Positions 1-35,277 of a stretch of 35,277 bases of DNA are shown in pieces. This DNA comes from a virus. Below the pieces are notes generated by a model. It was not told the origin of the DNA. It did not search any database and saw nothing but the letters and a program-made list of their open reading frames with translations. The translations under genes were made by a program, and so were the position numbers. The DNA lies in IMG/VR virus record IMGVR_UViG_3300035034_002102, positions 1 through 35,277 of that record. The stretch is one strand, 5' to 3'. The first letter of the stretch is position 1. Every line of letters starts with the position of its first letter.

Positions 1-49
1 GTATTTCAACAAGTATTTCAGACAAAATCAATAAATCTTCCATGTAAGT

Positions 50-93
50 GATTTTTAAAAAGAAAGACGGTGAAAATCAATTCACCGCCTTTC
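50..93 (-). terminator. Rho-independent terminator
   Basis: On the minus strand a 13-bp stem with one mismatch (arms 62-74 and 81-93, 6-nt loop) is followed by a run of six T. It lies just after the stop of the small minus-strand gene at 117..275 and fits as its terminator. Confidence 0.75.
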
Positions 94-3078: not shown

Positions 3079-4242
3079 ATGAGAAATCTATTAAAATATC
3101 GTCCTTGTGAGCTGGTGCAAGGCAAAAAAAGATGGTATATTAAGTACTATCAAACTAATCCGAAAACAGGGAAATGTGAGCGGCAAAGGGAAACGCATAG
3201 CATTAATCGAATTAAATCTTTGAGTGATCGCCGAGCGATTGCTTTTGATTTGATGTTATTGATTAATGAACGACTTGCAGATGGTTATCCATTTGGGGAC
3301 CATTATGGCGAAAACATCGAAACATTACGATTGAAATTGACGAATATATTAGATTCAATTGAATTTGCTTTGCAACTCAAGCTAAGTGAATTTGATAATG
3401 ATGATTCAAAAAAAGGCTACAACAATAAGGTAGCCGTTTTTAAAAATTGGATAATCGAGCGAGAATATCACGAGCTTCAAATTAAAGATTTTGAAGTTTT
3501 GCAGGTTCGAGAATTTCTAAATTATTTGTTGCAGGTTCGCAAATTAGCAGCTGTCACTTATAATTCTTACATCGTGCATTTGCGTCAGATTTTTAAAATA
3601 CTTGAGGAACAGTTCTATGTTTCCGAAAATCCATTTTTAGGGCATCGTTATTTGAAAGAAAAGCCAACCAAAATCCGTCTGCGATTTAAAGAAAATCCTC
3701 GAAAACGGTTTATTGAAATACTAAAACAGGCGGGCGAAACTTGGCTATTGTTAGCAATCGTTTTGCAATATTATTGTTTTGTTCGTCCAAAGCAGTTGCG
3801 ATTGCTGAAAGTTTCCGATATTGATTTTCAAAAATGGACGATAGAGCCGCCAGTTACTACGAACAAAAGTGCGAAAGAATTGAATTTAGTTATCCCTAAA
3901 GTTGCGCGAGATTATTTGCCAATTTTGCTCAGAAGTAGCAACCAAAATCTTTTTTTATTTAGCAATTTGCAGGAAGGGCCAGGAAGCACGCAAATTGGCA
4001 AAAGTGTGATGTATAGACGACATCAAAAGTATTTAAAAGTTTTGAAAGCGGAAGGTCACAATATTGATGGGCTTACTTTTTATAGCTGGAAAGATACAGG
4101 CGGTCACGATATGACTTACAAAAATTCAAATATTTCGATTTTTGATGTTCAAGATAGAATGAATCATTCGAGTCCAAAAACGACAAAACGTTACGTTGCG
4201 AGTAATGATAGTAGTGCAGATTTTATTCACAATGAGATTTGA
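3079..4242 (+). CDS. int: Tyrosine recombinase / phage integrase
   Basis: This 387-aa protein has the layout of Bacteroidota phage and ICE integrases: an N-terminal arm-binding region, a SAM-like core-binding domain (about 105-190) and a C-terminal catalytic domain. Visible catalytic positions are R236 (in YCFVRPKQL), H363 (in DRMNHSS) and the nucleophile Y372 (in TKRYV). The usual HxxR box appears as WKDTGG (337-342), so its histidine and arginine are replaced, as this clade often tolerates in part. It would integrate the phage at the site partly copied in the upstream attP-like region. It is read away from the repressor block, with its own leader. Confidence 0.9.
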   Translation: MRNLLKYRPCELVQGKKRWYIKYYQTNPKTGKCERQRETHSINRIKSLSDRRAIAFDLMLLINERLADGYPFGDHYGENIETLRLKLTNILDSIEFALQLKLSEFDNDDSKKGYNNKVAVFKNWIIEREYHELQIKDFEVLQVREFLNYLLQVRKLAAVTYNSYIVHLRQIFKILEEQFYVSENPFLGHRYLKEKPTKIRLRFKENPRKRFIEILKQAGETWLLLAIVLQYYCFVRPKQLRLLKVSDIDFQKWTIEPPVTTNKSAKELNLVIPKVARDYLPILLRSSNQNLFLFSNLQEGPGSTQIGKSVMYRRHQKYLKVLKAEGHNIDGLTFYSWKDTGGHDMTYKNSNISIFDVQDRMNHSSPKTTKRYVASNDSSADFIHNEI

Positions 4243-5636: not shown

Positions 5637-6512
5637 ATGAATTGTTACACACATAGCGGCTTATTTCATGCTGACGAAGTTTTTGCATTTGCGATATTAA
5701 AGTTCGCAAACATCTGTGATAAAGTCGTTCGGTTAAAGGATATTTACAATATCCCAAAAGACGGAATCATAGTGGACATTGGGCGAGAGTATGACGGTGT
5801 CAAGAAGTTTGACCATCATCATTGCTTAATTTTGCGTGACGACGAGAGTTGTTACGCAAGTGCGGGATTGATATGGAAGCATTTTGGTAAAGATGCAATT
5901 CGGAATTCTACTCAAATAAAATCGACTGAAATCGTTGATTTTGTTCATGCTAAAGTAGAACAGAAAATAATTATTAGCTTAGACTCGCATGATGCTGATG
6001 CAGAATTTGAGTGTGTTGGTAAAAATAGAGTTGGCGAAGTTGATATTTTTACTTTATCAAATGTAATTTCTTCATTCAATAGCTTTGATATTAAGAACGA
6101 TGTTTGCCAAAACGATTGCTTTGAAAAGGCAGCCGAGTTGGCGACTTCTGTTTTAATTTCACAAATACATAGTGCTTATTTTTTATCACAAGCGATGTAT
6201 GAATTTGATGAAATATCAAATTTTAGAAAAAATGGACTTGTCATTGTTTTAGATAAATTCGTGGATTGGAAAGAAATCGTTTGTGAAAAATATCCAACTG
6301 CCTTGTTTGTCATTTCTCCATCCGCACATCCGGGTTCACCTTTTTCAATGATTGCCGTTCCAATCGCTGCAAATTCAAGAAAATTGAAAAAAACAATTCA
6401 TCGACCGACTTGGTTTTTGGGTTTTGTTCATCAAGCTAAATGGATAGCAGGCGGCAAATCGGTCGATGAATTATTAGACCTTGCAGAATTTAATCTCAAC
6501 AGTTGGAAATAA
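5637..6512 (+). CDS. MYG1 / UPF0160-family metal-dependent hydrolase
   Basis: The 291-aa length is normal for bacterial MYG1 relatives, which are DHH-like phosphoesterases; eukaryotic MYG1 acts as a 3'-5' RNA exonuclease. Family motifs are present in order: THSGLFHADEVFAFAIL at the N-terminus (H6, H11, D13), VDIGREYDGVKKFDHHH (D47, D59-H62), YASAGLIWKHFG (73-84), SLDSHDADAEF (from 114), and a C-terminal IHRPTWFLGFVHQAKW block. The metal ligands appear intact, so the enzyme is probably active. MYG1 genes are usually chromosomal; one in a phage, last in a cassette flanked by terminators, suggests lysogen-expressed cargo. The real substrate is unknown. Confidence 0.85.
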   Translation: MNCYTHSGLFHADEVFAFAILKFANICDKVVRLKDIYNIPKDGIIVDIGREYDGVKKFDHHHCLILRDDESCYASAGLIWKHFGKDAIRNSTQIKSTEIVDFVHAKVEQKIIISLDSHDADAEFECVGKNRVGEVDIFTLSNVISSFNSFDIKNDVCQNDCFEKAAELATSVLISQIHSAYFLSQAMYEFDEISNFRKNGLVIVLDKFVDWKEIVCEKYPTALFVISPSAHPGSPFSMIAVPIAANSRKLKKTIHRPTWFLGFVHQAKWIAGGKSVDELLDLAEFNLNSWK

Positions 6513-27430: not shown

Positions 27431-28264
27431 TTATGCCGTTTCAAAATCTTTAATCAAAATCTTCCTTTCGTCATTATGTTGATTTATCAACGTATAAAAT
27501 ATCTTATAAAAATCATTTTTAAACAAATACATATTTTTGCACACGTACATTATATAATAGTGTGCCGTGCTACGACTCACATCAAAATAAGCTGCAATAT
27601 CCCTTTCTCGCATTTCGCAGCCCCAGTATAACATGGCCGCCAGTGCTTTTTTGGCATATACAATGTCTTTTTGCTTATTTTTGCGCAATACGTTTTCTAT
27701 GTCTATATTTAATACCTCGCAGCTTGTATTGATAATCCCGTCAAAATCTCTTAGCATTGCGATAAAGTGTTTTGCGTTTTGCTCGAAAACTAAGGGGACA
27801 ATAATAGTATCGGAATTAGAGCAAAATAATACGTTTGAGTTGATTTTCTTTGATAAACTTACAATTTGTTTCCTTTTTGCTTCTTTTAATCGAAATCTGT
27901 AAAAATGCTTTTTTGCCGTATCCATTTGCAAAATTCCATCATCCAAGCTATATTTTGACATATAATTTTGGATGGCGGTTGCGATTGGAATATCCATTTC
28001 TGTCTGAGCTGCAAGGTAGATTGACATTTCATTCATTACCGCTTCGTGTAAATGAATTCCAACTTTTTCTGACAGCTTCAAATCATTTTTTGCAACAAAA
28101 CAAACTTCGCCTTGCTTATCTTTCAATTTATTTGATGCCTTATTCGGTAGCAATAAAGTTTTAATGAATTTTTTGTGAATAGATTTATCCAATATGAATT
28201 CGTATCCATACGTATTCAAGATTACATGAGCAGCAACCAAAGAAGTGTAAACTTTTACTTTCAT
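27431..28264 (-). CDS. DnaA C-terminal-like DNA-binding protein (277 aa)
   Basis: I start at ATG 28264 (MKVKVYTSLVAAHVILNTYG), since the 34 residues upstream look non-native. The C-terminal part YAKKALAAMLYWGCEMRER then DIAAYFDVSRSTAHYY closely follows the pattern of DnaA domain IV, which binds DnaA boxes: helices before and after an R-rich turn. There is no AAA+ Walker motif. It is therefore a candidate origin-binding or regulatory protein, acting alone or through the iterons at 29417. It is flanked by terminators on both sides. Confidence 0.6.
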   Translation of the reverse strand: MKVKVYTSLVAAHVILNTYGYEFILDKSIHKKFIKTLLLPNKASNKLKDKQGEVCFVAKNDLKLSEKVGIHLHEAVMNEMSIYLAAQTEMDIPIATAIQNYMSKYSLDDGILQMDTAKKHFYRFRLKEAKRKQIVSLSKKINSNVLFCSNSDTIIVPLVFEQNAKHFIAMLRDFDGIINTSCEVLNIDIENVLRKNKQKDIVYAKKALAAMLYWGCEMRERDIAAYFDVSRSTAHYYIMYVCKNMYLFKNDFYKIFYTLINQHNDERKILIKDFETA

Positions 28265-28344
28265 AATGTTACCTTTATAATGAAATACATTAATAAGATT
28301 ATAAAAATAACACTTTTTTGATGAAATTATCATTTTTTTGATAA

Positions 28345-28376
28345 TAAAAAAAGGGAATTCCGTCACCGAAACTCCC
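28345..28376 (-). terminator. Terminator after spanin-like genes
   Basis: On the minus strand a 9-bp stem (28353-28361 with 28368-28376, two G-T pairs) is followed by TTTTTTT. It ends the transcript of 28406..29300. Confidence 0.75.
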
Positions 28377-28918: not shown

Positions 28919-29300
28919 ATCTTATATTTTTTTTACTATTTAAAATTGCAGCTCGTTCGTTTTCGTTCGCTGCTTTTAATGCTTCGATTCTATTATTAAA
29001 ATCTCGCAACGCATTTTGGTAGTCCTTTTCTGCTTTTAGCTTATCTGATACTTCCTGCTCGATGACCAATTTTTGATTTCTAAACTCCGTATCTAAATCA
29101 AGTACTTCAATCGTCAATTCGTCATTCGTGAATTTAAGCGATTCAATTGATTTTTTTTGGGCAACGTTGAGCTCCATCAATTCCTTGTTTTGCTCTTTGA
29201 GGTTGATGTATCCAACCACGCTGAATAGGATAAAAAGGCCTAAAACTACAAAACCCACATTTTTTAATTTGCTAATAATACTCATATCAATATTCATCAT
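28908..29300 (-). CDS. Inner-membrane coiled-coil protein (Rz-like spanin candidate)
   Basis: This 130-aa protein has an N-terminal anchor (VGFVVLGLFILFSVVGY) and a long periplasmic coiled coil (about 33-115, with ELMELNVAQKKSIESL and FNNRIEALKAANENE), the same layout as phage lambda Rz. Start codons at 29300, 29297 and 29285 are in-frame. It overlaps the next gene and its transcript ends at 28376. Spanins usually lie next to endolysin genes, but here they are on the other side of the origin-like region. Confidence 0.55.
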   Translation of the reverse strand: MMNIDMSIISKLKNVGFVVLGLFILFSVVGYINLKEQNKELMELNVAQKKSIESLKFTNDELTIEVLDLDTEFRNQKLVIEQEVSDKLKAEKDYQNALRDFNNRIEALKAANENERAAILNSKKNIRYEN

Positions 29301-29416
29301 GCTATCCTGTTTTGATTAACAATGATTCAAAAGTAAAGCCTTCCGAAATCGCAACTTAGGACAGAATAATTAAGAAACATATCAAAAAACAGGCTGTAAG
29401 TGTTGCAAATGAACAA

Positions 29417-29496
29417 GATACATTTTGTATCTTCCCATGTTACATTTTGTATTTTCCCATGTTACATTTTGTATTTTCCCATGTTACATTTTGTCA
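29417..29496. repeat. Four 22-bp iterons, candidate replication origin
   Basis: The core TACATTTTGT begins at 29419, 29441, 29463 and 29485, exactly 22 bp apart; units two to four also share the flanks ATGTTACATTTT and TTTTCCCAT. A 22-bp step keeps the sites on one face of the helix, which is typical of iterons bound by Rep-like initiators. AT-rich stretches follow (29505-29545 and 29628-29652), which would suit DNA unwinding. No gene is visible from 29301 to 30038. Confidence 0.6.
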
Positions 29497-29706
29497 ACAC
29501 ATAGAAAGGAGTTATTATTTATTTATAATTATTTAAGATTTAGTTGTAGTTGTGCAACACTCGAAAAATCCCATTTTTTGGTTTTGCAAAATTATATTTG
29601 GTCGAATCGGTCGAAATCGAACAACTCCATTTACAAAAAATTTTTTTTCTTTTTCTCGGGGGCGCGCGCGGATTGAAAGCGAAATCGGGTTTTGGGTAAG
29701 GTTTGA

Positions 29707-29812
29707 TTTTACATTTTTTATTGAATGGTGGTTGTGGTTTTGGGCGAATAGGGAACGTTTAAAAAATTCGATAAAGCAGCATATACTAAAGTCATTACAA
29801 TTGCTTAAATAG
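29707..29812. repeat. Imperfect long repeat, copy 1
   Basis: This 106-bp stretch starts TTTTACATTTTTT and ends GCTTAAATAG. It shares order and blocks with copy 2 at 29890-29994, including CGTTTAAAAAA and ACTAAAGTCATTA. It begins with the same TTACATTTT core as the iterons. Confidence 0.55.
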
Positions 29813-29889
29813 AAAGAAAAGTGGCAATAAGAAAAGATGCGAGGTTCGGGAATAGTGACGTTGCGATAAGCATTTGTAAGAATATGCGG

Positions 29890-29994
29890 TTTTACATTTT
29901 TTTTGCTATTCTTTGTTCGTTTTTAAGAGGGTAGAGAGCGTTTAAAAAAAATAGCGAGGTATCGGAAACTAAAGTCATTAAGTCGCTTATATAG
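29890..29994. repeat. Imperfect long repeat, copy 2
   Basis: This 105-bp stretch is 183 bp from copy 1 and keeps the TTTTACATTTTTT start, a CGTTTAAAAAA block and ACTAAAGTCATTA near the end. The middle diverges. It reads as part of an origin-like block together with the iterons. Confidence 0.55.
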
Positions 29995-29998
29995 ATAA

Positions 29999-30035
29999 TA
30001 AAAAAGCCGTTTCCGAATGAATCGAAAGCGGCTGC
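29999..30035 (-). terminator. Terminator of small early genes
   Basis: A stem AGCCGTTTC/GAAAGCGGCT with one bulged G is followed by TTTTTT on the minus strand. Its inner part (TTTCGATTCATTCGG) resembles those of 9732-9768 and 30654-30687. It comes directly after the stop at 30039. Confidence 0.75.
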
Positions 30036-30038
30036 AAA

Positions 30039-30191
30039 TTATTTTTCAAACGAATCCAATGCTTTAGCAATTAGAGCAATCGGTTGAATATTCCTACCAG
30101 GATCACCTTCAATAAATGCACCTTTAAAATATGCGTTGCCTTGAATCTTTACTGCTAAATCCAATCGTTTCAAAGAAATATATGTTGTCAT
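30039..30191 (-). CDS. Small protein (50 aa) overlapping the preceding gene
   Basis: Starts ATG 30191 (MTTYISLKRLDLAVKIQGN) and ends ALIAKALDSFEK. The central YFKGAFIEGDPGR looks like real coding sequence. It overlaps the gene at 30124..30357 by 68 nt in the +1 frame, so it is either a separate coupled gene or the continuation of that gene after a frameshift. A terminator follows right after the stop. No family is recognised. Confidence 0.5.
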   Translation of the reverse strand: MTTYISLKRLDLAVKIQGNAYFKGAFIEGDPGRNIQPIALIAKALDSFEK

Positions 30192-30929: not shown

Positions 30930-31103
30930 CGTTTATTCTGTTTTGTGATCAGGTAACGAACCTTTCTACCCTCTATAATTTCCTCACATTTGCCGAAAGT
31001 CAGCTCTGCAATCTTGTGAGCGACACCTATGTCGTAAGTAGACTGTAATGGCTTCGCTTTGAAGCTCGTCTTTTGCTGCTTTTGCTGCCTGTCTTAGTGT
31101 CAT
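30926..31103 (-). pseudogene. Small gene needing a +1 frameshift (58 aa if joined)
   Basis: The frame from ATG 31103 (MTLRQAAKAAKDELQSE) soon becomes unlike its start and stops at 30984. The +1 frame, open from about 31094 to TGA at 30926, reads as normal protein (GVAHKIAELTFGKCEEIIEG and then RKVRYLITKQNKR) but has no start codon. The ATG overlaps the upstream stop (TAATG) and the +1 stop overlaps the next ATG (ATGA), so both junctions fit one coupled gene with a +1 shift. This may be a programmed shift, a real inactivating deletion, or a base missing from the sequence. Confidence 0.55.
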
Positions 31104-32089
31104 TATAAGCTATTGAATAAGTCAATAAACGCACTAAACGCATTGCTACGTTTACGTTTTTCATTGCTTTTCTTATAAGAATCTTCTTTTTTCAATTTCG
31201 ACCCTTCTGCGAGTCGGTTCTTGAATTGCTTGTTGATTAATTTCGGGTCGAATCTGTCAGGGTTGTCGATAAAGTATTCATTTTTTGATACTGCATAAAG
31301 CAGCCAATCAAGTTCCCAAAGCAACTCTTTCGCCGATGGCATTTTGCCATTCTGCACGAATAGATTATCACTTGCTTTTAGTATTATTTCCCTGAGTGCA
31401 GTTAAGGTTCTTTTGTCGAAGTCTTTCGATTTGAATGCTACCGCAAAGGCATTTAAGAAGTGTGCGTCAAATGCAGTCGTTCCAATGCTTTCCAATTCTG
31501 CTTCTTTTATATTATTTTTAGCTGCTAATTTTTTGAATTTTCTTTCGATTTCTGATTCATTCGCACCGTTATCGTTCGTTTGCGTTGTCGTTTGCGTTTG
31601 CAACGGGGTTACTTGTTTCAATGCGGCTGCAAGCGGGGCAGGTTTCTGTGCTATTTGTGTTGTAGATACTTCTTTATCTATTGCTGTTTTAGTTGCTGTT
31701 TTATTGTATTTCTTTTTCGATAGCGTACTCATCATTTCAATAATATCTTTTTGAAATATCTTTTCGTTAAGACAGTAGCGATATGTTTTATCCCAAGCAA
31801 ATTTGTTCATTTTGCTCGACACCTCTATAATTTCTTGCTCCAATAGTGGAGCAATCAAGTACCCTAACTGTCGCACGGACATTTCAGGCAAAACTTCGTC
31901 TGAAACGATTTTCTTATAACCGCCTTCTACGTAAACCCAGCACTTTCCATCAACAATATTTTTTTCGTTGATGCGATTCGATGCGGTGAAGTAGATTAAT
32001 TTTTCAATAAAGCGTCCTGCATTGCGACCGTACTGGCGAGCTAAGTCAAGCCTTTGGGTTATAAATTGATGATTCGGATTCATGCTCAT
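31103..32089 (-). CDS. Replication-initiator-like protein (328 aa)
   Basis: The N-terminal 120 residues (MSMNPNHQFITQRLDLARQY, then GGYKKIVSDEVLPEMSVRQL and YLIAPLLEQEIIEV) look like the winged-helix start of phage replication proteins such as DnaD/replisome-organiser types. A threonine/glutamine-rich linker (about 150-175, TQTTTQTND) joins it to a helical C-terminal domain ending in a basic tail (KKEDSYKKSNEKRKRSN). It lies 1.6-2.7 kb from the iterons at 29417. It likely recruits helicase or binds the origin. Start at ATG 32089. Confidence 0.6.
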   Translation of the reverse strand: MSMNPNHQFITQRLDLARQYGRNAGRFIEKLIYFTASNRINEKNIVDGKCWVYVEGGYKKIVSDEVLPEMSVRQLGYLIAPLLEQEIIEVSSKMNKFAWDKTYRYCLNEKIFQKDIIEMMSTLSKKKYNKTATKTAIDKEVSTTQIAQKPAPLAAALKQVTPLQTQTTTQTNDNGANESEIERKFKKLAAKNNIKEAELESIGTTAFDAHFLNAFAVAFKSKDFDKRTLTALREIILKASDNLFVQNGKMPSAKELLWELDWLLYAVSKNEYFIDNPDRFDPKLINKQFKNRLAEGSKLKKEDSYKKSNEKRKRSNAFSAFIDLFNSL

Positions 32090-32623: not shown

Positions 32624-33973
32624 TCAACCTTGGATACCGTTTCCAAGGTATTCGATGTTTGAAAATTCGCACATCGTCATTATAATAGCTTCTACTATTT
32701 TCGATTGAAACTTATCTGACATAAGGAAGCAGGCTTCGCTGTAATTGTCAAAGAAGCCTAACTCAAGTATTGCAGCAGGCATGGACGTTGCTTTCAACGT
32801 CCAAAAGTTTGACTTTTTAATGCCTCGCTGATGCCATTCAGGCAAAAAGTGTTCGACATTTACTTTCAATCTTTTCGTAAATGCTTCCATTTCCGAACCT
32901 CGATAAATATGAGATTCCATTCCGCTCGCAACTTGTTTCGCTGCATTTTCGTATTCGTCAGCGATTGAATATTTATTCTCGTTATCAAAAGCAGTTGCGT
33001 TGTGGTCAATCGTAATTAATGCCGTTTTGCCAAGTTGCTTTTCAAATCTGTTCGCTCGATTAGCACGCTCCATTAATCCAATGTCTTGTATTTCAGGAAC
33101 CAGGACTTTATAGTTGAGTCCGAGTTGGTTGCACCGACTTACGAGCCGTGCAACTATCTGTCTATTAATCTCATATTCGTAAATCGTGAATTCACCGTTT
33201 GGCAATTCCTTTTTAAATGTTTTACGCTTTCCTGCTGTATTGTCACCGTGTGAATTATTCAAAATCCAAGTTTCGACGCTCAGAATCCCTTGCGGCTTTT
33301 TGTTCGTATTCTCTTTTGTTGCACCGTCAAATCTTGCTAAATCGTAATACTCAATCACGCTTATCAATTTTGCAGCATACTCTTCATCGTCACCGCCATA
33401 ATTCGCCCGTTGCAATTCCTCCGCCCAACAGGCGTAATCTTCACATTTGAAACAAGCCGTGTAATAGATTCTTTCTGCTAAAAACCTCGAGTGACTGCGG
33501 AATGAAAACCAAGGTGTTTGGTAAACTGCAAACTCGCCTTGCTCAATCAAATCAGGATTCAAGCGGCAATCAACTTCATGAAACGTCACATCGTTTTTGC
33601 ACTTGACGCCGAATAGATTCTTGAAGTTTATAGCATTATACGAGGTGCCACCGTCTGATTCAAGTATTGCCTGCGATAAGGTAATAGAAGCGGGTATTCC
33701 GAAGAGCCTTTGCTCTTCGATTGCGATTTGAGAGTAATGTTCGGCAAATTGTTGCTTCTCGTTTGCGTTCGCAACGAGCTTACTGAATACTCGATTATTA
33801 ACTCCCCGCCCGATTCTTGCACTGCTTTCACCGTCTCCAAAATCAGCTGCAAATGCTGTTGCTCTATTTTTTTTTTGCTCCGCATCGAAAGGCGAAGTAT
33901 TAAGATCTTTTTGACACCCTGCTAATATTGTGATGCAAATGATTAGCATCATTACTTTTGTTAGATTTTCCAT
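32624..33973 (-). CDS. Bifunctional lipoprotein endolysin (glucosaminidase + amidase)
   Basis: Residues 1-20 are a lipoprotein signal with a clear lipobox (ITILAGC, C20), followed by QKD. Residues 75-215 resemble a GH73/FlgJ-like glucosaminidase (GIPASITLSQAILESDGGT with E105, then NFKNLFGVKC). Residues 230-430 are an amidase_3-type N-acetylmuramoyl-L-alanine amidase with zinc ligands visible: SHGDN (H242), YEYE (E266/E268), TIDHNA (H324) and the catalytic AILELGFFDN (E404). It cuts both glycan and peptide parts of the wall. Lipidation of an endolysin is unusual and would route it through Sec and the lipoprotein pathway. Confidence 0.85.
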   Translation of the reverse strand: MENLTKVMMLIICITILAGCQKDLNTSPFDAEQKKNRATAFAADFGDGESSARIGRGVNNRVFSKLVANANEKQQFAEHYSQIAIEEQRLFGIPASITLSQAILESDGGTSYNAINFKNLFGVKCKNDVTFHEVDCRLNPDLIEQGEFAVYQTPWFSFRSHSRFLAERIYYTACFKCEDYACWAEELQRANYGGDDEEYAAKLISVIEYYDLARFDGATKENTNKKPQGILSVETWILNNSHGDNTAGKRKTFKKELPNGEFTIYEYEINRQIVARLVSRCNQLGLNYKVLVPEIQDIGLMERANRANRFEKQLGKTALITIDHNATAFDNENKYSIADEYENAAKQVASGMESHIYRGSEMEAFTKRLKVNVEHFLPEWHQRGIKKSNFWTLKATSMPAAILELGFFDNYSEACFLMSDKFQSKIVEAIIMTMCEFSNIEYLGNGIQG

Positions 33974-34013: not shown

Positions 34014-35213
34014 TTAATAAAGGCTTTCTCCGGATCTAATATGTTTAATCACATTTGCTAAAATTACATTTGTTACAGGAAGGAATAAACACTCGATAAG
34101 GTGTAAAAACCATCTGAAATTATAGACTACGTCCATCATTTCTCCTTCGTTGTTCGTTGCTCCAAATATTTCTTTGTGTATCGCCATGGATGCGAATTCA
34201 GCCGTGCAGAAAAACAGTATTAGTGCTATGTGTTGCCATTTTTTCAAGTGATTCGTAAAGAAGGTCGTAATTGCCATCATCGAGCCGAATAAAATTGACA
34301 TCAATACGATATCAATTGACCATGTTTCTTGTGCAGAACCTAAAAAGAAAATGATTCCTGTCGTAACACCTGCCAAACCCAAAATCCAATAAAGGATTTT
34401 TCTGATTAAGGTTTTTTGGCTTTTCATCTTTTCAATATGTGGAATGTAAGTCGATTCTAATTCCGTGTAAGTCGCTTTTAATTCCGTGTAAGTCGCTTTT
34501 AATTTCGTGTAAGTGCCTTCCAAATCGACGTGCTTTTTATGTAAGCCACTATTGCTTTTTTGTAAGTCGGTGTAAGTCGTTTCCAATTTCGTGTAAGTGC
34601 TATGTAAGTCACTATTGCTTTTTTGTAAGTCGGTGTAAGTCAATTGAAGTTTCGTGTAAGTCGAATCTTCGCTTTCATTCGCTTTGCGTATGTCGTTTAA
34701 TCGACTTACGTTGATGCTGTTTTCTGCTTTTTTTGCTGCTAAGTCTTTTAGTGCTTTTTCTGCTCTATCGTCTGCCTCTTTTCTTAATCTATTTGCCGTA
34801 TTTAATTCTTTTTGAGAATTGTTGTCGGCATCATAATACCCTCTTAACTTCGTAGCTATACTATCGTTAGCCGTTCTTAACTCTTGTATTTTTCTTGCTT
34901 GAGACTCTGAATCTCTTTTCAAAATTGGTAGTTCTGAAGCTGCATTTTGTAGCTTCATCTCAAAGTACTTTTCTTGTACCGTGTAAGCCGTTTCTGATAC
35001 CTCTGTAAGTGCTAAAAGCGACTTACATTCGTAGTAAACAGAACGCTCAATTGTTACTTTTTCAGCGAGATTCACTTCCAACTGTCGCTGTAAGCGATTG
35101 TGGTGTTTTACCTCGTTTAGGTCTGCAAGCTTCTTGATTCCGGAAAACGGGAATAAGATTTTTCCGTTTTGCTCAACAATTTCAAATTCTATCTCGTTTA
35201 TTTTCAGTATCAT
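34014..35213 (-). CDS. Coiled-coil, multi-pass membrane protein with iterated TGTAAGTC sites in its gene
   Basis: This 399-aa protein has an unidentified globular N-terminus (1-95, MILKINEIEFEIVEQNGKIL), a long coiled coil (95-265) including heptads of the form TYTxLxx (190-256), and four predicted membrane helices near 272-292, 301-320, 326-346 and 367-390. The coiled region is encoded by repeats of 21 nt. The octamer TGTAAGTC occurs nine times in the plus-strand sequence of the coil and three times in inverted orientation upstream. A membrane-anchored, DNA-binding tether is possible. No family is recognised and the function is unknown. Confidence 0.6.
   Translation of the reverse strand: MILKINEIEFEIVEQNGKILFPFSGIKKLADLNEVKHHNRLQRQLEVNLAEKVTIERSVYYECKSLLALTEVSETAYTVQEKYFEMKLQNAASELPILKRDSESQARKIQELRTANDSIATKLRGYYDADNNSQKELNTANRLRKEADDRAEKALKDLAAKKAENSINVSRLNDIRKANESEDSTYTKLQLTYTDLQKSNSDLHSTYTKLETTYTDLQKSNSGLHKKHVDLEGTYTKLKATYTELKATYTELESTYIPHIEKMKSQKTLIRKILYWILGLAGVTTGIIFFLGSAQETWSIDIVLMSILFGSMMAITTFFTNHLKKWQHIALILFFCTAEFASMAIHKEIFGATNNEGEMMDVVYNFRWFLHLIECLFLPVTNVILANVIKHIRSGESLY
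34445..34662 (+). repeat. TGTAAGTC array inside the coiled-coil gene
   Basis: Exact plus-strand TGTAAGTC starts at 34445, 34466, 34487, 34561, 34571, 34603, 34624, 34634 and 34655. Variants TGTAAGTG (34508, 34592) and TGTAAGCC (34540) fill the series. The first four are 21 nt apart, one heptad of the coil, on the coding strand reading GACTTACA (Thr-Tyr). Confidence 0.8.
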
Positions 35214-35228
35214 TTTCGTTTATTTTTT

Positions 35229-35277
35229 GACTTACACGACTTACATAAATTCAAATCGACTTACATGCTCACTTACA
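35229..35277 (-). promoter_or_regulatory. Inverted TGTAAGTC sites upstream of the coiled-coil gene
   Basis: Three exact GACTTACA sites (35229-35236, 35238-35245, 35258-35265) and one CACTTACA (35270-35277) lie just before the start of the gene at 35213, in the opposite orientation to those in the coil region. They are candidate binding sites for control of this gene or for an origin or centromere-like function. Confidence 0.6.

Follow-up and report, generated by a model that had tools for sequence, protein, structure and literature searches.

IMGVR_UViG_3300035034_002102 is a linear virus contig of 35,277 bases, which was analysed over its whole length (hereafter the window). At its right end lies P0001 (34014-35213, minus strand), a gene of 399 aa that according to codon usage is coding in all segments in the annotated frame. 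The protein is laid out as an N-terminal domain (residues 1-95), a coiled coil at about residues 96-258 with heptad repeats at 181-258, and a hydrophobic C-terminal domain (259-399) with about four putative transmembrane segments, judged by eye from the sequence and not computed. No Pfam family above the cut-off was found for P0001, and the N-terminal domain matched no family, DNA-binding families included. Single-sequence models were of low confidence (pLDDT 55 for the full protein and 66 for the N-terminal domain), and together with the missing family match this means that nothing specific supports DNA binding by the N-terminal domain. The C-terminus showed weak matches to phrog_15559 (E=9e-4) and to the holin phrog_565 (E=0.03), and directly downstream of P0001 is an endolysin gene (glucosaminidase and amidase_3; 32624-33973, minus strand). 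Because of this weak holin-like character and the endolysin next to it, P0001 may equally be a lysis protein.

Searches for homologues of P0001 gave none in viral contigs, GTDB genomes, phages, plasmids, 50 records of TerL relatives and 22 genomes, and none in Bacteroidota genomes sampled twice (399 and 395 genomes, for the N-terminal part, the C-terminal part or both), with the reservation that the scans of contigs depend on exact matches to short peptides and could miss distant relatives. One candidate (L262) was rejected since its match is by coordinates confined to the coil, and three weak matches (L263, L322 and L323) were rejected as no related gene is found there. P0001 thus appears to be an orphan.

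The structural module (about 6.5-27.3 kb) has its relatives among temperate phages of Bacteroidota. The terminase large subunit (TerL) is 35% identical to that of Polaribacter phage Leef_1, 42% to one in a Flavilitoribacter nigricans contig and up to 45% to those of uncultured viruses. The stretch from 27.4 to 35.3 kb has no counterpart in the TerL relatives, apart from a weak endolysin match. The window encodes a tyrosine integrase and repressor-like genes, and therefore the phage is probably temperate. According to gene order in comparison with relatives such as G007, the right contig end probably corresponds to the early region, with the late operon on one side and the immunity/integrase genes on the other. 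Elsewhere, a homologue of MYG1/UPF0160 (PF03690, E=4e-40), an exonuclease family according to Pfam, is found at 5637-6512 of this temperate phage. Two related stretches at 490-560 and 755-835 (TTTGAAACGGC...GAACCC) look by eye like the 3' parts of minus-strand tRNA genes and are possible attachment-site or tRNA remnants; ARAGORN called no tRNA in the window, and the Rfam scan likewise gave nothing.

The octamer series in and upstream of P0001

The window contains 14 copies of the octamer TGTAAGTC, compared to 0.60 +/- 0.80 in shuffles, and 13 of these exact copies fall within 34445-35265 (about 0.83 kb), set against 0.6 expected per whole window. This is the densest 8-mer or iteron-like cluster of the window, and the lone copy away from it is at 4113. 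Nine exact copies are on the plus strand in the coil (34445, 34466, 34487, 34561, 34571, 34603, 34624, 34634 and 34655), as part of a coil array of 12 sites of the form TGTAAG(T/C)(C/G) in one orientation and two frames (34445-34662, plus strand). Seven further copies in the region differ by one mismatch (34508, 34540, 34592, 34703, 34982, 35004 and 35270). Outside the coil, the sense strand of P0001 carries CGTAAGTC at 34703-34710 (minus strand, Val-Ser-Arg) and an exact TGTAAGTC at 35020-35027 (minus strand, Cys-Lys-Ser). On the plus strand are TGTAAGCC at 34982-34989, where the coding strand reads Ala-Tyr-Thr, and TGTAAGTG at 35004-35011, where it reads Leu-Thr and which forms an inverted pair with the site at 35020.

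Upstream of P0001, four copies (three exact and one variant) lie in non-coding DNA on the minus strand, all within 64 bp of the start codon: at 35229-35236, 15 nt away from the start codon, at 35238-35245, 9 bp from its neighbour, at 35258-35265, and, as TGTAAGTG, at 35270-35277, up to the very last base. The array is thus cut by the contig end and may continue past 35277. Another TGTAAGTG (43-50, plus strand) is within 50 bp of the opposite contig end and, should the two ends meet, could mark the other limit of the array, but this is suggestive only. The sites in and upstream of P0001 total about 20. An earlier note on this DNA had listed nine plus-strand copies in the coil, one inverted copy at 35020 and three inverted copies upstream, and all of them were recovered in our count at the same coordinates.

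Read frame by frame, the core sites use all three antisense phases and, on the sense strand, phases 0 and 2, which makes five of the six frames. This agrees with the earlier observation that the octamer is re-used as Val-Ser-Arg at 34703, as Cys-Lys-Ser at 35020 and as non-coding DNA upstream. The octamers of the coil also alternate between two frames, x-ACT-TAC-ACx (Thr-Tyr-Thr) and GAC-TTA-CAx (Asp-Leu-Gln/His), a point absent from the earlier note. By contrast, a word that is a by-product of codon repeats, as in pentapeptide or collagen-like genes, would keep to a single frame, and the typical repeat genes retrieved in a scan for three octamers in short gaps used one frame each. A comparison over 320 loci, which amount to 3.8 Mb and were not chosen at random, gave no second real gene with an array of at least 8 copies in at least 3 frame classes; another multi-frame array (L299) was rejected as non-coding DNA with a chance ORF.

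It could still be that duplication of heptads copied a Thr-Tyr-Thr stretch and that the other copies are coincidental. Tandem Repeats Finder reported a 21-bp unit in 3.3 copies (34445-34514, plus strand) and a 63-bp unit in 2 copies (34538-34661, plus strand), which explain much of the coil series and bear out the previous suggestion that part of it follows from 21-nt heptad repeats. As these units are tandem duplicates, the coil copies are not independent and seem to stem from about five independent sites. The decisive test is therefore that of the sites outside the coil, and it is a fair one because the motif had been defined on the rest of the series. Between the coil and the start codon (34664-35213), four sites with at most one mismatch were found against an expectation of 0.36 (none of 4000 simulations), and TGTAAG occurred 4 times in the non-coil coding part against 0.37 expected (1 of 20,000). 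The 64 bp upstream contain three exact copies where 0.001 would be expected, and outside the coil overall there are 8 sites (at most one mismatch) against 0.41 (0 of 4000). With four or more copies of a short site close together, the series exceeds what chance would give, in the non-coil part independently of duplication.

Codon choice was unusual as well. Resampling of synonymous codons according to the usage of the phage gave a mean of 0.63 octamers and a maximum of 4, against 10 seen (0 of 20,000), and shuffling the gene's own synonymous codons gave a mean of 1.15 and a maximum of 6 against the same 10. The earlier note had proposed selection at the DNA level, with a frame-aware null model as the check; this null is rejected, and with the upstream copies being non-coding the series is not a mere by-product of protein repeats. 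The signal at the DNA level is well supported. Duplication amplified the coil part, but as an explanation of the series as a whole the by-product reading is rejected: it fails for the non-coil sites, both coding and upstream, for the two frames inside the coil and for the choice of codons, and is strongly disfavoured.

Helical spacing and candidate functions

The coil sites follow one another at steps of 21, 21, 21, 32, 21, 10, 21, 11, 21, 10 and 21 bp, corresponding to 2, 2, 2, 3, 2, 1, 2, 1, 2, 1 and 2 helical turns, and every one of them is near a multiple of 10.5 bp. The 21-bp gaps are imposed by the heptads. The gaps of 10, 11 and 32 bp are not dictated by the heptads and also lie near these multiples, which argues for phased iterons, although both 10-bp steps are copies of each other. 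Because most of the 21-bp gaps are set by heptads and duplication, the helical phasing rests on few independent gaps. The upstream gaps are 9, 20 and 12. The flanks of the non-coil sites resemble the coil flanks weakly (p about 0.04), so the shared element is a short site of about 8-9 bp and not a copied longer block.

We consider a helically phased iteron array, functioning as a replication origin and/or early control region, the best explanation of the series, with a probability of roughly 0.45 as one figure for either role. A DNA-binding protein encoded by the phage would recognise the octamers as short asymmetric sites, which are placed at nearly whole helical turns from each other. Located in the probable early region, the array would begin or continue upstream of P0001 and then cross two thirds of its coding sequence, and the protein bound there would assemble into a multi-copy nucleoprotein complex serving as the origin and/or the control region. 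Duplication of heptads would have amplified the sites in the coil: as a heptad equals 21 bp, or two turns of B-DNA, each added heptad would put the next site on the same face of the helix. The half-step sites (10-11 bp), which are in the other frame, would have arisen separately.

The likeliest binder would be the product of ORF 31103-32089 (minus strand, 328 aa), a candidate replication initiator that matches phrog_11233 'replication initiation protein' (E=2e-5) and, with 32% over 106 aa, an elemovirus replication initiation protein. This ORF is on the same strand as P0001, about 2.3 kb downstream of the array and not adjacent to it, and no iterons were found in the ORF or its flanks. An initiator-like gene at this distance and without iterons of its own, combined with the densest cluster of the window, favours an origin or early control region. 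Alternative binders would be the N-terminal domain of P0001 and a phage protein of 311 aa (ORF 27431-28366, minus strand) with a weak C-terminal HTH (HTH_Tnp_4 E=8e-5 and Bac_DnaA_C E=0.005, both below the curated cut-offs). Searches for viral relatives of the endolysin, the initiator and the HTH protein gave none that were usable. Against the iteron reading counts that no homologue of P0001 was found that could attest to conservation of the sites, the array being described from a single genome. The array region, as far as it is covered before the contig ends within it, has a GC content of 0.357, the same as the rest of the window, and appears to lack a marked AT-rich unwinding element.

The sites could also be operators, with a repressor or the N-terminal domain of P0001 binding the upstream sites to act on transcription and the in-gene sites to block elongation, resulting in autoregulation. 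The clustering of sites at and in one gene, four of them so close to the start codon, fits with this. A precedent is known from cluster A mycobacteriophages, in which elongation is halted at stoperators, repressor sites located outside promoters (PMC6550527). Stoperators have in common with the octamers that they are repeated and asymmetric, that most of them are not at promoters and that the phage is a temperate one (PMC6550527). However, stoperators are spread over the genome, whereas only one exact copy of the octamer is found outside 34445-35265. Moreover, a scan for sigma-70-type sites only revealed no promoter-like signal above chance upstream, no octamer lies between the divergent repressor-like genes at 1775-2630, and the N-terminal domain matches no DNA-binding family, and we regard an operator array as somewhat unlikely.

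The opposite orientation of the upstream and coil copies raises the idea of an RNA element, in which the upstream copies, UGUAAGUC in the transcript, would pair with the GACUUACA copies of the coil, fold back and control the translation of P0001. All four upstream copies are indeed opposite in sense to all 12 coil copies, the sites at 35020 and 35004 can form a hairpin, and the predicted folding of the transcript was stronger than that of shuffles (z -4.4, 0 of 20, from 20 shuffles only). This stability is, however, an automatic consequence of the opposed copies, the 5' part alone was not significant (z -1.5), and one duplex does not need so many redundant copies. Such a role is very unlikely.

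A further possibility concerns partition or membrane tethering, with the N-terminal domain of P0001 binding the array and the hydrophobic C-terminal domain anchoring the phage DNA to the membrane. The order of the domains (N-terminal domain, coil, hydrophobic C-terminus) would suit a tether, as would the position of the array in the gene of its own putative binder. But the phage has an integrase and an integrated prophage needs no partition, and the arguments given above, the absent DNA-binding family match and the weakly holin-like C-terminus next to an endolysin gene, speak against it, making a tether quite improbable. Still more doubtful is a dual-coding version, in which the heptad period of 21 bp, or two turns, would double as a phased binding array for P0001 itself, its N-terminus binding and its C-terminus anchoring phage DNA or the origin to the membrane.

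Known systems and arrays in other phages

Gene O of phage lambda contains ori, and the iterons of plasmids show helical phasing (PMC5043065). The iteron array suggested here resembles a lambda-type origin in that short sites recur within the coding part of a gene of the early region (PMC5043065). The iterons of lambda, however, are 19-bp inverted repeats in the initiator gene, while here about 20 asymmetric sites of about 8 bp are situated in and upstream of a coiled-coil membrane-protein gene. The array is in P0001, which has no similarity to initiators, and unlike in lambda it neither lies inside nor abuts the initiator-like gene, which counts against the iteron reading. Because lambda-type membership fails on this point, we claim only that the array may work like an iteron origin. 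Iteron plasmid origins consist of many short repeats, mostly direct and in B-DNA helical phase (PMC5043065), a make-up that the present array seems to share. They differ from the present array in that the latter is partly protein-coding and its cognate initiator is a candidate only.

Binding sites within genes are already known, but here about 20 share one coiled-coil gene in five of the six frames, and two codes seem to act on the same DNA simultaneously. Confirmation would make this a tractable case of a protein repeat building or amplifying a phased DNA-binding array.

The scan for three TGTAAGTC copies in short gaps retrieved 38 viral stretches, mostly one-frame protein repeats (pentapeptide ADLQG and collagen-like), compared to 37 with the reversed octamer as a control. 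Given this control, five non-coding stretches (L104, L127, L129, L142 and L143) were rejected as shared arrays, and the octamer is not enriched in other viruses. Three of the five (L104, L129 and L142) hold non-coding TGTAAGTCA arrays in 9-bp steps on both strands, in phages without evident relation to this one, which the control scan suggests to be a coincidence. A Chi-like or host uptake word was also rejected for the 11 Bacteroidota genomes scanned, in which the octamer was near or below the reversed control. In the literature nothing relevant on the octamer was found. To the extent that searches could tell, the octamer seems to be confined to this phage.

Arrays of other octamers are a different matter. 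When TerL relatives were scanned for dense 8-mers in several phases, many carried one lineage-specific octamer array with copies in both orientations: CAGTCCCA seven times (L164), AGTCCAAA 12 times (L166), GTGCTAAC 11 times (L172), GTTACAAA nine times (L174), GTTCCAAC nine times (L209), GATTACAA eight times (L219), and others. In these six, in L231, L235 and L247 and in others, 7-12 copies are packed into about 170-360 bp each. That arrays of an own octamer appear to be common among the TerL relatives is in favour of the iteron reading. The octamer differs between lineages as if the DNA-binding specificity evolves fast, and from the arrays it seems that a rapid change of iteron specificity is common among these temperate Bacteroidota phages. 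This could be studied in cultured members, for example Polaribacter phage Leef_1.

Like the TGTAAGTC array, those of the relatives (for example in L172 and L166) consist of lineage-specific 8-mers over a few hundred bp on both strands. Unlike it, they use other octamers and are mostly in the non-coding gap ahead of the capsid operon, and their position nearer to the capsid genes is a further point against the iteron reading. The syntenic counterpart of the relatives' arrays is more likely the stretch at 29300-30124 of the window, and because of this we treat them as apparent analogues of the TGTAAGTC array rather than as established homologues. The stretch at 29300-30124 is a non-coding gap of 820 bp with a 22-bp tandem repeat in 3.5 copies (TACATTTTGTATTTTCCCATGT, 29419-29494) and more copies of TACATTTT.
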